A stretch of DNA of 56,631 nt from positions 1-56,631 of the forward strand of contig JAUVYV010000023.1 in the NCBI GenBank assembly GCA_030602885.1, given 5' to 3'. The stretch is from Phycisphaerales bacterium (GTDB lineage: Bacteria; Planctomycetota; Phycisphaerae; Sedimentisphaerales; Anaerobacaceae). This document shows positions 1,159 through 29,525 of this stretch, piece after piece (position 1 is the stretch's first letter; each line of letters opens with the position of its first letter). The translations under genes and the position numbers were made by a program. Under the pieces are notes generated by a model that saw nothing but the letters and a program-made list of their open reading frames with translations, did not search any database and was not told the DNA's origin.

Positions 1159-1210
1159 CAACCCAGCCACTCCAATTCCTGTCTCCGCTTAACCTCTGTC
1201 CTGTCAAGCA
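1159..1210. repeat. 52-bp inverted repeat, left copy
   Basis: This 52-bp stretch recurs in inverted orientation at 2304-2355 with a single mismatch (51 of 52 identical by eye). The two copies bracket the prenyltransferase gene at 1319-2293. The left copy ends 108 nt before the start codon. The sequence is not itself palindromic. Confidence 0.85.
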
Positions 1211-1318
1211 GTTAGCCCAGCCGCCAAAAAATCCTCGGTACATTCCATTTGCAATTCCCCCACCAGATAACGATAATGCCCCCTCCAGACCTGTCAGAAC
1301 TTAGGAAATCATAAGCGA

Positions 1319-2293
1319 ATGCAAGCCACTGTAAACAAACAAGTTACACCCGACCCGCCGTCGAGGTGTCAAGTCCTTGTAACACTTTTTTTGGCCTCGC
1401 GGCCCAAATTCCTCACGGCCAGTGCCGCCCCCGTCCTCGTCGGCACCGCCCTCGGCTACGCAGCCGCCGGCTCTCTGCAACTGCATCTCTTCATCTTAGC
1501 AGCACTTGCGATCATGGCTCTGCACGCCGGCGCCAACATCGCAAACGACTATTTCGACCACCTCTCCAGAAATGACTGGCTAAACACCAACGTAACCCCA
1601 TTCTCCGGTGGCCGACGCTTCATCCAACAGGGCGTAATGTCACCAGGAGCAACGCTGTTGGCATCCCTGTTTTTCCTAACCCTTGGCTGTGCAGTAGGTT
1701 GTGTCATCCTGCTTTTGACCGGCAGCGTGTTCATTTTGCTCCTTGGCCTGGTCGGTCTTGTCGGCGGATTCTTCTATACCGCGCCACCGGTCAAGCTCGG
1801 CTACCGCGGCGTCGGCGAAATCATCATCGGTATCCTGTTCGGCCTTTTGCCCGTCTATGGCTCTTACTACCTCCAGGCGCAAGTCATTGATATTACACCA
1901 CTTATACCGGGCTTGATCGTTGCGATACTGATCCTGCTTGTTATCCTGATAAACGAATTCCCCGACAGAGAAGCCGACGCCGCGGTCGATAAAAAAACGC
2001 TGGTTGTCGTTTTCGGAATCCCTTGCTGCACATGGATTTACAGAATCGCCCTTATCGCAACCTATTTTCTGGCAGCGGCATACACGCTTATTCACAAGCC
2101 ATTTCTTTGGGCCGGTGTAATTTATCTGCTTACCCTCCCCGTTGCGATTGTAGCCGTTAAGTTCGCAAATAGCAGTGACTTAGCGAAGCCGAGCAAAACT
2201 CAGCACCGCGCAAGCGCCGTCACAATCCTGCTGCACCTGCTCGGCTCAGTGGCCATGGCAGCCGGCTTTGTGATCTCAGCTTTGAGCGGGTGA
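1319..2293 (+). CDS. UbiA/MenA-family prenyltransferase
   Basis: This is a polytopic membrane protein of 324 residues, the usual length for 1,4-dihydroxy-2-naphthoate prenyltransferase (MenA) and related enzymes that join a polyprenyl chain to an aromatic ring in quinone synthesis. The two Asp-rich, Mg-binding motifs of the family are visible: NDYFDHLSRND at about residue 79 and NEFPDREADAAVDKKT at about residue 212. Hydrophobic segments fill the space between and after them. The second motif with its following KTLVVVFG is typical of MenA. No other menaquinone gene is nearby, so the aromatic substrate is inferred. The gene stands alone between the arms of a 52-bp inverted repeat. The start is an ATG with AGGAAATC about 12 nt upstream. 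Confidence 0.85.
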   Translation: MQATVNKQVTPDPPSRCQVLVTLFLASRPKFLTASAAPVLVGTALGYAAAGSLQLHLFILAALAIMALHAGANIANDYFDHLSRNDWLNTNVTPFSGGRRFIQQGVMSPGATLLASLFFLTLGCAVGCVILLLTGSVFILLLGLVGLVGGFFYTAPPVKLGYRGVGEIIIGILFGLLPVYGSYYLQAQVIDITPLIPGLIVAILILLVILINEFPDREADAAVDKKTLVVVFGIPCCTWIYRIALIATYFLAAAYTLIHKPFLWAGVIYLLTLPVAIVAVKFANSSDLAKPSKTQHRASAVTILLHLLGSVAMAAGFVISALSG

Positions 2294-2303
2294 TAGGGTT
2301 AAT

Positions 2304-2355
2304 TGCTTGACAGGACAGAGGTTAAGCGGAGACAGGAATTGGAGCGGCTGGGTTG
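2304..2355. repeat. 52-bp inverted repeat, right copy
   Basis: This is the inverted partner of 1159-1210, beginning 11 nt after the prenyltransferase stop codon and ending just before the end of the convergent gene at 2362. The only difference seen is GGAGCGG here against GGAGTGG in the complement of the left copy. Confidence 0.85.
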
Positions 2356-3114: not shown

Positions 3115-3333
3115 CTACTTGTCCTCTTCGTTGCCAATAACGTAGCCGGCGCCTCCGCCAATGGCTGCTCCAACCACAGCCCCTCCAAAGCCCCCGGTTA
3201 CAGCCCCAATAACTGCGCCGCCGGTAGCTCCGACAGCACCATAGGTCTGAGCGTTATTTGCACAGCCCGTAACAAGCGTCAGATTGAGACTCAGGGCAGC
3301 AAGTATCAGGACTATCATTAAGCGTTTGGCCAT
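3115..3333 (-). CDS. Glycine-zipper lipoprotein, YMGG type
   Basis: The 72-residue product starts with a lipoprotein signal peptide ending in a lipobox (VTGC, Cys at about residue 24). The rest is a run of alternating Gly and Ala with GxxxG spacing, such as GAVIGAVTGGFGGAVVGAAI, ending in a short acidic tail. Such glycine-zipper lipoproteins are outer-membrane or periplasmic and are often linked to envelope stress, but their molecular role is generally unknown. A good ribosome binding site (GGGAGAACC) precedes the ATG. Confidence 0.8.
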   Translation of the reverse strand: MAKRLMIVLILAALSLNLTLVTGCANNAQTYGAVGATGGAVIGAVTGGFGGAVVGAAIGGGAGYVIGNEEDK

Positions 3334-3576
3334 TTAGGTTCTCCCATTTCAATAATGCTCCAATCGGCTTTTCTGTCCAACAATTATGCTATCGTCCACC
3401 TTCCTGCCTAATCTTTAGGTCTCGTGGCGATTAAAGGCCGGCAAGAGCTTATTTGCGAACAGCGGAGCATGCTACGTAATCTTACACGGCAGAGGTTTGA
3501 GGATATCATCTGAATGACAGGAAGTCAGGCATTGAAAGTGACGGCCTGGCAGTGGGTGTCTGTGCCAAAAGAGGAA

Positions 3577-3648
3577 AGCCAACGGTCGGAATCGAACCGA
3601 CAACCCCTGGTTTACAAAACCAGAGCTCTACCGTTGAGCTACGTTGGC
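3577..3648 (-). tRNA. tRNA-Thr (UGU)
   Basis: The minus strand folds into a full cloverleaf of 72 nt. The acceptor stem is GCCAACG/CGTTGGC, the D stem GCTC/GAGC, the anticodon stem CTGGT/ACCAG around the loop TTTGTAA (anticodon TGT, reads ACA), and the T arm GTCGG-TTCGATT-CCGAC. The discriminator base is U. CCA is not encoded. Confidence 0.95.
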
Positions 3649-3789
3649 GACAGGAGCGATGATAATAAATAATCGGCGATTGGTCAATGTTTCCCGGGGC
3701 GGTTTTGGCCAATTGGGAGGGTGTTTTTTGGTCGGGGGCGGTTTGGTTTTGAGAGCGGGAGGTTATCGGCAGGGGCAAGATTTGGGATA

Positions 3790-12860: not shown

Positions 12861-15629
12861 GTGAGACGTGTACGACCGAGTTTGCTTGCATTTGCCATGC
12901 TCATCCCCTTTGTGTGTTCTGCGCAGATGGTCCCGTTTGTCATTCCGGCTCAGCAGGACCCTAATTCGCTCATCGCCATTCAAAACGAACCTATTGATAC
13001 TACCGGCGAGTGGATTACAGTTGCCGGCGACCGGTTCGTGCTAAGCGGCGAGCGAGTCAAGATATGGGGGGTGAATCTATCGTTCGGGGGGAATCTGCCG
13101 AGTTCTGCCGACGCGCCGACGGTGGCTGAGCGTCTGGCGGCGGCTGGTATCAACTCAGTCCGGTGTCATCACCTTGATACTTCCAAGTATCCGAGTGGTA
13201 TATGGCACCCGACTACGGGACAGACGATATATCCCGAAGCGCTGGATCGGCTCGATTACTTTGTGAACGAGCTGGCTCAGAGGGGCATCTATGTCAATCT
13301 GAATCTGCACGTGGGTCGCGCGCACAGCCAATACATCGGCCTGCCGGACCCCGGGACCAGCTATGACAAAATAGTCGGACTGTTCGTGCCGCAGCTCATA
13401 CAAGCACAGAAGGATTACGCCCGGGATATGCTTGACCGGGTGAACCCCTATCGCGGAATGCGGGTAGCGGACGACCCGGCGGTGGGGTTTGTGGAGATAA
13501 CAAACGAAGACAGCTTCTTCATGTGGAACGGGGAGGAGAGTCTTCGAAATCTACCAAGCTATTACGCGGATATTTTGCAGGGGCAGTACAACGATTGGTT
13601 AGCTGATGAGTATGGTGACACGAATAGCCTGCGTGCGGTGTGGGATGCGAATGTGGAGCCATTAGGGCCGAATGTTGTTACGGGCTTTGTGGAACATTTC
13701 AATAATCCGGGGGCGAATGCGTGGGTATTGGAGGAACATGAGGGATGCGATGCTACGTTCGAGTTGGGGACGTACGACGGCAATACGGCGGCGAAGTTCA
13801 CGATCCATGTCACCGACAGCACGGGCTGGCACCTGCAGGTCAAGCACCCGCAACTCGAACTCGTGGAGGGGCAGTACTATACGCTGAGTTTTGACGCTGC
13901 CGCTGAGGGACCACGTACTGTCTGGTGCAGTGTAATGCAGGACCACAGTCCCTGGGCGAATCTGGGATTCAATCGGACGGTGGAATTAACGACCGAGTGG
14001 CAGACGTTCACATTCGGGTTTACAGCTTCTGCGGATGATAATGACGGCCGAGTGAACATCAGCTTTGGGGGTGGGGACACTACGACGTGGTACCTTAACG
14101 ACGTGCAGCTACGAACCGGTGGACAGGTCGGACTGGCAGAAGGAGAGAGCCTCGAAGCAGGTACCGTCCAACTGTTTGTCGATGCAGAAGTGAAGAAACG
14201 GGCCATCGACCGAATGCGGTTTCTGGCTGAGACGGAGAAGGCATATTTCGACGGGATGTATAGCTATATCAAAGACAATCTCGGTTATGACGGGCTTGTG
14301 ACGGGGACGATTGTTTTCGGCCCCCTGGGCTTGTATGCGCAAAGCGATATGGATTTCATAGACGGTCACGCGTACTGGCAGCATCCAGTGTTTCCGAACG
14401 TGCCGTGGGATCCGGATGACTGGTATATTCAGCAGAAACCGATGACCGATTATATCGACCAGGCCACTGTCTTCGCATTGGCGGCCGAGCGGCTCGGCAA
14501 GGGTTCGACGTATTCAGGCAAGCCGTTTACGGTCAGCGAGTACAACCATCCCGCGCCGCTGGATTCACAGGTATCGTGCGTGCCGATGCTCGCATCGTTC
14601 GCGGCTGCTCAGGACTGGGACGGCTTATGGCTTTACACGTACACGCACTCCGAAAACTCGTGGTACAACAACTACTTCCCGGCCTACTTCGACATCATGC
14701 ACAACGCTGCCAAGTGGGGGTTCATAACAGCAGGTGCGAATATCTTCCGATACGGCGGCCTCGGGCCGGTCGGCGATACGTATTCCTACGTGGGGCTGGC
14801 GAACCCCAATGACCCGCTGGGCGAGCTGGCGGATCTGCACCTTAAACACGGAAGCGGTATGTTTGGAGTGCTTGCAGAGAAGGCAGGTATTGCGCGCCAG
14901 GATTTGCTGAACAGTCGGATTGTTCATACTCTGTACGAGACGGGCGTTATTGATGAGTCGAACGAACCGAACACGACGGTGGTTTCTTGGCAGGTGGATA
15001 TCGACGGCAAGGGGATATATACGGCGGTCGGCCCTTCGGCAGGTGTATATGTGGGGCACAAGGGCAAGTTCGCCGCTGCGACGGGCAACACCGTCGAGGT
15101 CAACGAGCCGAATTATGCGGCGCTTACGATAACGTCTCTGTACAGCGGGGACGCGGTTTCTCCGCCGGAGTCGAAGCACAGGTTCTTGATTACGGCGTGC
15201 GGGCGGTGCGAGAATACGGGTATGGTATTTTCGCCGGACCGAACGACGGTGGGGACGAACTGGGGGACGGCGCCGGTGCGAATTGAGCCGGTAGCTGCGA
15301 CGATACGGTTCGGGTACAAGGGATTGACGTGCTATGCTTTGTCGCCTGATGGTACGATCAAGACAACGGTGCCGGTGCATGTCGAAAACGGCCAGACGGT
15401 GGTTGAGATATCGCCGGTGTATGAGACGATGTGGTATCTGCTGAGGGTATCAGGAGATGTCAACGGGGACGAGCAGACAGACTTCAGGGACTTCTGTAAA
15501 CTGGCCCAGCACTGGTTGCAGGATGAGGAGTCGGTCGATATAGCTCCGGTTCCTTTCGGCGACGGAGTAGTGGCCCTCGAAGACGCTGCAATTTGGGCAG
15601 ACAACTGGCTTCTTGGCGTTGGGCCTTAG
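12861..15629 (+). CDS. Secreted clan-A glycoside hydrolase with inserted CBM and dockerin-like tail
   Basis: This is a large exported polysaccharide-degrading protein. A GTG at 12861 gives a clean signal peptide (MRRVRPSLLAFAMLIPF... ending SAQ). A longer version starting with ATG at 12777 would bury it. The catalytic part is a (beta/alpha)8 barrel of the GH5-like clan: IWGVNLSFGG at the first strand, FVEITNEDS with the likely acid/base Glu at about residue 211, and FTVSEYNHP with the likely nucleophile at about residue 556. A beta-sandwich resembling CBM4/9 (about residues 276-418) lies between these two. The last 55 residues contain GDVNGDEQTDFRDFCKLAQH, a dockerin-like Ca-binding pattern common in planctomycete secreted proteins. 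The substrate is unknown. Confidence 0.75.
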   Translation: MRRVRPSLLAFAMLIPFVCSAQMVPFVIPAQQDPNSLIAIQNEPIDTTGEWITVAGDRFVLSGERVKIWGVNLSFGGNLPSSADAPTVAERLAAAGINSVRCHHLDTSKYPSGIWHPTTGQTIYPEALDRLDYFVNELAQRGIYVNLNLHVGRAHSQYIGLPDPGTSYDKIVGLFVPQLIQAQKDYARDMLDRVNPYRGMRVADDPAVGFVEITNEDSFFMWNGEESLRNLPSYYADILQGQYNDWLADEYGDTNSLRAVWDANVEPLGPNVVTGFVEHFNNPGANAWVLEEHEGCDATFELGTYDGNTAAKFTIHVTDSTGWHLQVKHPQLELVEGQYYTLSFDAAAEGPRTVWCSVMQDHSPWANLGFNRTVELTTEWQTFTFGFTASADDNDGRVNISFGGGDTTTWYLNDVQLRTGGQVGLAEGESLEAGTVQLFVDAEVKKRAIDRMRFLAETEKAYFDGMYSYIKDNLGYDGLVTGTIVFGPLGLYAQSDMDFIDGHAYWQHPVFPNVPWDPDDWYIQQKPMTDYIDQATVFALAAERLGKGSTYSGKPFTVSEYNHPAPLDSQVSCVPMLASFAAAQDWDGLWLYTYTHSENSWYNNYFPAYFDIMHNAAKWGFITAGANIFRYGGLGPVGDTYSYVGLANPNDPLGELADLHLKHGSGMFGVLAEKAGIARQDLLNSRIVHTLYETGVIDESNEPNTTVVSWQVDIDGKGIYTAVGPSAGVYVGHKGKFAAATGNTVEVNEPNYAALTITSLYSGDAVSPPESKHRFLITACGRCENTGMVFSPDRTTVGTNWGTAPVRIEPVAATIRFGYKGLTCYALSPDGTIKTTVPVHVENGQTVVEISPVYETMWYLLRVSGDVNGDEQTDFRDFCKLAQHWLQDEESVDIAPVPFGDGVVALEDAAIWADNWLLGVGP

Positions 15630-27560: not shown

Positions 27561-27599
27561 AGGGCTCCCATTTTGCGATTCTTCGCAAAATGGGGACCC
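27561..27599. repeat. 39-bp hairpin repeat, copy A
   Basis: A near-palindrome with a stem of CCCATTTTGCGA and TCGCAAAATGGG around TTCT, extended by GGGCT and GACCC flanks. Its exact inverted copy is at 29412-29450. The pair brackets dnaB, copy A starting 32 nt past the dnaB stop codon. There is no T tract. Confidence 0.85.
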
Positions 27600-27631: not shown

Positions 27632-29149
27632 TCAAAACGGCGCCGCCTCACCCTCGCCGCCCCCGCGGGCCGAATCGACCGGCTCGGCAAAACCGCCGCC
27701 GGAAACGCCGGCGTACGAAGCGTTCTCGAACCGCGCAAGTTTCTCTCTGAATATAAGCCCCACCGTCCCCGTCGGGCCGTTACGCTGCTTCGCTATTATC
27801 ACCTCAGCCGTGTTGTTCTGTTCGTAATCCTTCTCGCCCCGATGATAATAGTCCTCCCGATGCAGCAGCATCACAACGTCGGCGTCCTGCTCAATGCTCC
27901 CGCTCTCACGCAAATCACTCATCCGCGGACGATGTCCCTCCCTGCCCTCCGGAGACCGGTTCAACTGGCTCAGCACCACCACCGGAACATTCAGCTCCCG
28001 TGCCAGACCCTTCAGGTAGCGCGATATCGTCGTTATCTCCTGCTGACGAGATTCGACCCTGCCGCCTAAATGCATCAACTGAAGATAATCCACTATTATG
28101 CATCGTATCCCGTGCTGAGCCCTAATCCTTCTGGCCTTCGCTCGCAATGCCAGCGGCGTAAGCGACGACGTGTCGTCAATGTAGATCGGCGCCTCCGACA
28201 ATACTCCGCACGCCTCAACTAATCGCCTGTGGTCCTCCGTGCTCAGCATCCCCTTGCGCACCCGCTGCGTCTCAACCTCGCTCGTGCTGCACAAAAATCG
28301 CTCCGCTAATTGCTGCTGACCCATCTCTAATGTGAATACCGCCACCGGTATCTTCTCCACAACGCCTATATGCTCGGCTATGTTTAGAGCAAGAGATGTC
28401 TTTCCCATGCTCGGCCGGCCCGCAATGATTATCATCTCGCCGTTCTGCAAACCGCACGTCAGCTCGTCAAGCTCGAAGTATCCCGTCGCTAATCCCGTCA
28501 CATGCTTGCCGTCTCGTTTCTCAATCAGCTCATAAGCGCCTGTCACCAAAGCTTTCAGACTCGCCACATTGCCGCTTATCTTCGCCTCGGCTAAAGCAAA
28601 TATCTTCCGCTCCGCCTCGTCTAAAATCTCGCTCGCATCACCACGCGGCTCATAAGCATCATTCAAAATCCCCGTCGCCGCTTCTATTGTCTCACGAAGC
28701 AGCTGCTTGTCCTTCACAATCTTCGCATAATACGTCACGTTCGCTGAGCTCGGCACGGACTCCATCACCCGCGCAAGATACTCGACTCCGCCCACCTCCT
28801 CCAAAACTTTGCGACTCTCTAATTCATCCCGAACTAATACACCGTCTATCCCCTCACCCCGGTTCCTCTCGTAAAGTGCAACAACAACGTCAAAAATGAG
28901 CTGGTGCTCAACGCGATAAAATGAATCCCGCTCAAGCAGCTCAACAACGTCGCCGATACACTCCGGGTCGATTATCATCGATCCTAAAACCGCCGCCTCT
29001 GCCGCTAAGGACTCCGGCATCCTCCGCGAAGGAATATCTCCACCACCCAAACCACTTCCCCCCGAAGGCCGAAGCGCCTCCGCTTTGCCCTTGCCGCCTT
29101 TAACTTTACCCGCACTAAGCGGGCTATCTTCCTTCACTGCCCTTGCCAT
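27632..29149 (-). CDS. dnaB: Replicative DNA helicase DnaB
   Basis: DnaB unwinds the chromosome at the fork as a hexamer. The 505-residue protein has a Gly/Lys-rich N-terminal extension of about 40 residues, the N-terminal helical domain (PESLAAEAAVLGSMI), and the RecA-like domain with Walker A GRPSMGKTS near residue 245, Walker B CIIVDYLQLM, and the DnaB motifs LSQLNRSPEGRE and IAKQRNGPTGTV. It lies after rplI as in the classic rpsF-ssb-rpsR-rplI-dnaB cluster. The C-terminal tail is Gly-rich. No intein is present. Confidence 0.97.
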   Translation of the reverse strand: MARAVKEDSPLSAGKVKGGKGKAEALRPSGGSGLGGGDIPSRRMPESLAAEAAVLGSMIIDPECIGDVVELLERDSFYRVEHQLIFDVVVALYERNRGEGIDGVLVRDELESRKVLEEVGGVEYLARVMESVPSSANVTYYAKIVKDKQLLRETIEAATGILNDAYEPRGDASEILDEAERKIFALAEAKISGNVASLKALVTGAYELIEKRDGKHVTGLATGYFELDELTCGLQNGEMIIIAGRPSMGKTSLALNIAEHIGVVEKIPVAVFTLEMGQQQLAERFLCSTSEVETQRVRKGMLSTEDHRRLVEACGVLSEAPIYIDDTSSLTPLALRAKARRIRAQHGIRCIIVDYLQLMHLGGRVESRQQEITTISRYLKGLARELNVPVVVLSQLNRSPEGREGHRPRMSDLRESGSIEQDADVVMLLHREDYYHRGEKDYEQNNTAEVIIAKQRNGPTGTVGLIFREKLARFENASYAGVSGGGFAEPVDSARGGGEGEAAPF

Positions 29150-29525
29150 CTTACACGCGACTCCTGCCCAAAATTCACACGCAATACCCTGTCAAAAAAA
29201 ACACCTCTGCACAACACAAACCAACATTTTAGACCTCCCCCACCAACCTGTCAAAACTTTTGTTCTCGCCCCCTTAGAGTATCTTCTCTCCTCTAACGGC
29301 CCTCACTTGCCATCGGCTGGGCCGTATCCCGCCGACTTCACTCCACAAATAGCCGCATACACTCCCTTACAGCGCATAAGAACACCCCTGTGACCTGACT
29401 TGAGGAGAAGAGGGTCCCCATTTTGCGAAGAATCGCAAAATGGGAGCCCTAAAGTTTGCCCGCACCCCTGTTTGATAACTTAGCCGCCCAACCTCCCGGC
29501 TTTTTCGCCCTCGCCCGCCCCCTCG
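29150..29525. other. Gap between rplI and dnaB with hairpin repeat
   Basis: These 376 bases hold the second 39-bp hairpin repeat (29412-29450). The remainder is C-rich sequence without a convincing frame. The gap is long for an operon of this kind and the hairpin may stop or slow transcripts into dnaB. Confidence 0.5.
29412..29450. repeat. 39-bp hairpin repeat, copy B
   Basis: Exact reverse complement of 27561-27599. The small asymmetry of the arms (GGGTCCCC on one side, GGGAGCCC on the other) shows that the two copies face each other. Confidence 0.85.

Follow-up and report, generated by a model that had tools for sequence, protein, structure and literature searches.

A unique inverted repeat around menA in a planctomycete genome, probably the result of a local inverted duplication

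In a Phycisphaerae-like planctomycete, a menA-type prenyltransferase gene is flanked by two inverted copies of a 60-nt sequence, and the presence of this inverted repeat was confirmed. Sequence comparison suggests that the pair is probably a lineage-specific local inverted duplication, and not a mobile cassette or a switch. This explanation is favoured because the arms are unique in the genome, because they are absent in relatives and because a second pair surrounds dnaB, a gene in its ancestral place. The window analysed is an entire contig (C78, 56.6 kb) of a MAG of 3.2 Mb in 128 contigs.

The left arm runs from position 1159 to 1218 (+ strand, on which it is pyrimidine-rich) and the right arm from 2296 to 2355 (- strand), in the gap between two convergent genes. 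The arms are 60 nt each, match at 57 of the 60 positions (95%) and enclose a spacer of 1077 nt; the right arm differs from the left one at arm positions 11, 53 and 57. The sequence-only reading had reported a 51/52 inverted repeat, and the outer 52 nt (1159-1210 / 2304-2355) indeed match exactly as it described. Beyond this core the repeat extends inward by 8 nt, with 2 further mismatches, and it did not grow longer when 290-300 nt around each arm were aligned with gaps allowed. When the window was shuffled 100 times with its dinucleotide composition preserved, the longest such repeat to arise was 23 nt, against 60 nt in the real sequence, showing that the repeat is not due to chance. An artefact of the assembly or of a fold-back read is unlikely, since the arms are not 100% identical but differ at 3 of the 60 positions. 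A role of the single arm as terminator hairpin was also considered and rejected: the arms alone do not fold clearly better than shuffles.

Between the arms lies the gene that had been recognised from the letters as a quinone-type prenyltransferase. Profile and homologue searches identified it as an intact MenA-type UbiA gene of 324 aa (1319-2293, + strand; Pfam PF01040, E 2e-28; TIGR00751 menA, above its cut-off), with the Asp-rich motif DREAD at residue 216. The gene, which belongs to the vitamin-K pathway, is present in a single copy, and its protein is the sole match of its type in the genome. Its nearest relatives are found in its own taxonomic family (57-68% identity); among named genomes, the closest ones come from planctomycetes, chiefly Phycisphaerae and Sedimentisphaerales. 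Within the family this menA type is patchy. About half of the family genomes searched contain it at 47-68% identity, and others, including some with a close dnaB, contain only a divergent homologue or none. Such a distribution is compatible with gene exchange or loss in the distant past, but not with a recent cassette.

The left arm ends 100 nt before the ATG of menA. In this interval lies the only sense promoter-like match ahead of the gene, a sigma-70-like sequence (1248-1277, + strand; a consensus match only and not a mapped promoter), which is therefore located inside the arms, at a distance of 41 nt from the ATG. The right arm begins 3 nt past the menA stop codon, which ends at 2293. It takes up most of the 68 nt that separate menA from a convergent hypothetical ORF of 138 aa (2362-2778, - strand). 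This ORF has no Pfam or NCBIfam match and is nearly an orphan: among 88 other genomes of the family, just 2 gave weak matches.

The DNA upstream of the left arm (1-1096) is noncoding and rich in repeats, pieces of which recur about 60 times in the genome. These genome-wide matches stop at 1096, so that the left arm lies outside them. One element of the region is a noncoding repeat of about 375 bp (163-538), of which more than 20 copies exist; these are roughly 70-96% identical and are frequently located at contig ends. Another is a tandem array (720-960) in which the units shrink stepwise (55, ~35, 19 and 14 nt) around the motif CTGACCCCTTTTCT. Just 5' of the left arm a stable hairpin with 23-nt arms is found (977-1025, z -6.4). 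The first 141 nt of the window are identical to the ends of contigs C103 and C65.

A second inverted repeat in the same contig served as an internal control. Its arms (27561-27599, + strand, and 29412-29450, - strand) match at 39 of 39 positions, are likewise unique in the genome and bracket dnaB (505 aa; 27632-29149, - strand). The gene is part of an rplI-dnaB-bamA context, whose order and orientation are the same in relatives throughout the family, wherever their fragments are long enough to show it. On the basis of this gene order, dnaB is neither moved nor left flipped, yet it is bracketed. Since a gene in its ancestral place and orientation can be enclosed in this way, bracketing as such is weak evidence for mobility. 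A neat bracket of inverted repeats resembles a cassette or a switch, yet caution is needed, as it can form around a core gene that was not moved or flipped. The left arm of the dnaB pair is internally a hairpin and the right arm is likewise a strong one, and for this reason the menA and dnaB pairs may differ in origin.

The arms around menA occur at just two sites in the 3.2 Mb genome (the core was searched with up to 3 mismatches), and no copy of the arm sequence was found in 98 related genomes or in viral contigs. A dispersed repeat or MITE was rejected on these grounds. Many scattered copies of the 52-mer, which according to the sequence-only reading would make the pair accidental, were looked for and the arms proved unique. 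Without further copies the pair is not accidental in that sense, yet the expectation for a mobile element fails as well. One explanation put forward had been a minimal cassette, mobilised in trans and bounded by terminal inverted repeats, and both the arrangement, which resembles terminal repeats, and the patchiness of the menA type within the family would suit it. However, mobile cassettes and MITE-like elements are expected to have a target-site duplication and multiple copies or filled sites. The menA pair has neither: no 4-12 nt match was present within 8 nt of either outer end of the repeat, no second copy exists in the genome and no relative carries the arms. As the closest menA relatives in addition sit in the same family, we regard such a cassette as extremely improbable. 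Another proposal, an invertible segment, is also improbable; here a trans-acting recombinase would invert the stretch with menA that the arms enclose, giving phase variation. The genome contains 33 tyrosine-recombinase domain matches, and recombinases can act from elsewhere in the genome, as do Mpi and RecV (PMC5903667). On the other hand, the earlier observation that no recombinase is adjacent holds for the whole 56.6 kb contig, in which no recombinase match was found; no serine recombinase was found in the genome, and the tyrosine recombinases are mostly on small contigs, those examined belonging to a phage-like element family. Invertons are likewise bounded by inverted repeats, but the repeats of known phase-variable switches are typically 10-20 nt and surround a promoter, usually with a recombinase nearby (PMC5903667). 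The arms around menA enclose an entire gene of housekeeping type rather than one for a surface trait, along with its probable promoter, so that a flip would carry promoter and gene along together. The pair could also be the relic of a past event in which the menA segment was inverted: staggered breaks, fill-in and religation in reversed orientation would have left an inverted duplication at both ends. The same footprint has been described for inversions in Drosophila (PMC7584159). The orientation around dnaB is ancestral, however, and none of the neighbours of menA in the window was found beside menA in relatives; we consider a past inversion about as improbable as a switch.

The arms might instead act in RNA. 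A transcript from upstream of 1159 to past 2355 could close a highly stable panhandle of about 50 pairs, which, by analogy with the pairing of the 5'- and 3'-UTR of icaR, would protect the transcript ends or be cut by RNase III. Of the explanations in the sequence-only reading, folding of the mRNA stood up as physically possible: the arms would lie in the UTRs, their predicted duplex has an energy of -128 kcal/mol, and they pair with each other in the minimum-energy fold of 1140-2380, which spans the whole transcript. It did not stand up as a conserved feature. Complementarity between the 5' and 3' flanks was judged by alignment scores, each locus being compared with its own shuffles; at this locus the score was 105 vs 22, but none of 34 related menA loci (0/34) scored above its shuffles. 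The differences between the arms are three transitions, two of them G-U compatible in the menA sense strand, which is uninformative. The panhandle is possible provided that the transcript, with its putative start, begins upstream of 1159, whereas the best promoter-like match lies 3' of the left arm, which may thus escape transcription. In icaR of Staphylococcus aureus, complementary sequences also flank a single coding region on both sides, and the pairing, which has been shown experimentally, can regulate expression (PMC3868564). There the pairing covers the Shine-Dalgarno sequence and high conservation is reported for the 3'-UTR (PMC3868564), whereas the left arm of menA stops 100 nt short of the ATG and is not conserved. 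A function in RNA is therefore rather unlikely; if true, the locus would provide a simple, naturally occurring case in which to test whether paired UTRs close an mRNA. Very improbable is a broader version, in which single core genes (menA, dnaB) would tend to acquire or retain unique inverted repeats in this lineage and the resulting panhandles would set mRNA stability.

Under the favoured explanation, a stretch of about 60 bases on one side of menA would have been copied by the polymerase during replication or break repair, and the copy would have ended up inverted on the opposite side, either by a template switch or by fill-in of staggered breaks. Both arms would have landed in intergenic gaps, so that nothing was broken and the duplication could be tolerated, and they would since have drifted apart to the present 95% identity. 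As expected for a local duplication, the arms are unique in the genome and lineage-specific among the 98 relatives and 34 menA loci. All sister genomes are too distant to reveal the state before the duplication; we infer the molecular event, the lack of function of the arms and which of the two is the original. The pair is similar to other close or spaced inverted repeats of bacteria that are attributed to local duplication, in having short unique arms about 1 kb apart that are intergenic, lineage-specific and recombinase-free. It differs from these in that its arms bracket exactly one gene and in that no sister genome shows the event. Among open papers, no description of the same arrangement in planctomycetes was found.

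To estimate how common such pairs are in the genome, 80 stretches were sampled, and pairs of 30 nt or more lying no further than 8 kb apart were counted in 0.96 Mb outside the window. They proved rare, being present in two places, L077 and L088. Arbitrarily chosen stretches of five relatives, 0.8 Mb in all, contained none; the menA- and DHH-gene regions of relatives contain a few. Noncoding DNA that was locally duplicated in direct orientation is also present in this genome. Two pairs in one contig of 56 kb are a mild excess, more than the local-duplication account predicts.

The pair in L077 (7246-7292 / 13819-13865) is a unique-looking 47-nt inverted repeat (94%) located in two gene-start regions. 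It flanks an operon with a DeoR-like regulator, named by eye from the sequence and not by profile, and may be a duplicated operator. In L088 (contig C22), imperfect inverted arms of about 580 bp (1-583 / 3179-3759) surround ftsW- and murG-like genes, also named by eye, and part of the arm sequence recurs elsewhere in the genome.

Small contigs of G000 (L095, L073, L072, L113, L057, L080, L054, L115 and others) form a related family, each with a short tyrosine recombinase. Some encode a tail-collar-like protein or ParB, and conserved proteins with no Pfam or PHROGs match are found as well. The family has the appearance of a repeated element of phage-like or satellite type, or else of foreign contigs that were binned with the genome. 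In L057, L074 and L092 (contigs C95, C110 and C43), the two contig ends are exact direct repeats of 141 nt, which is what an assembly with k=141 would be expected to give for a circular or tandem molecule.
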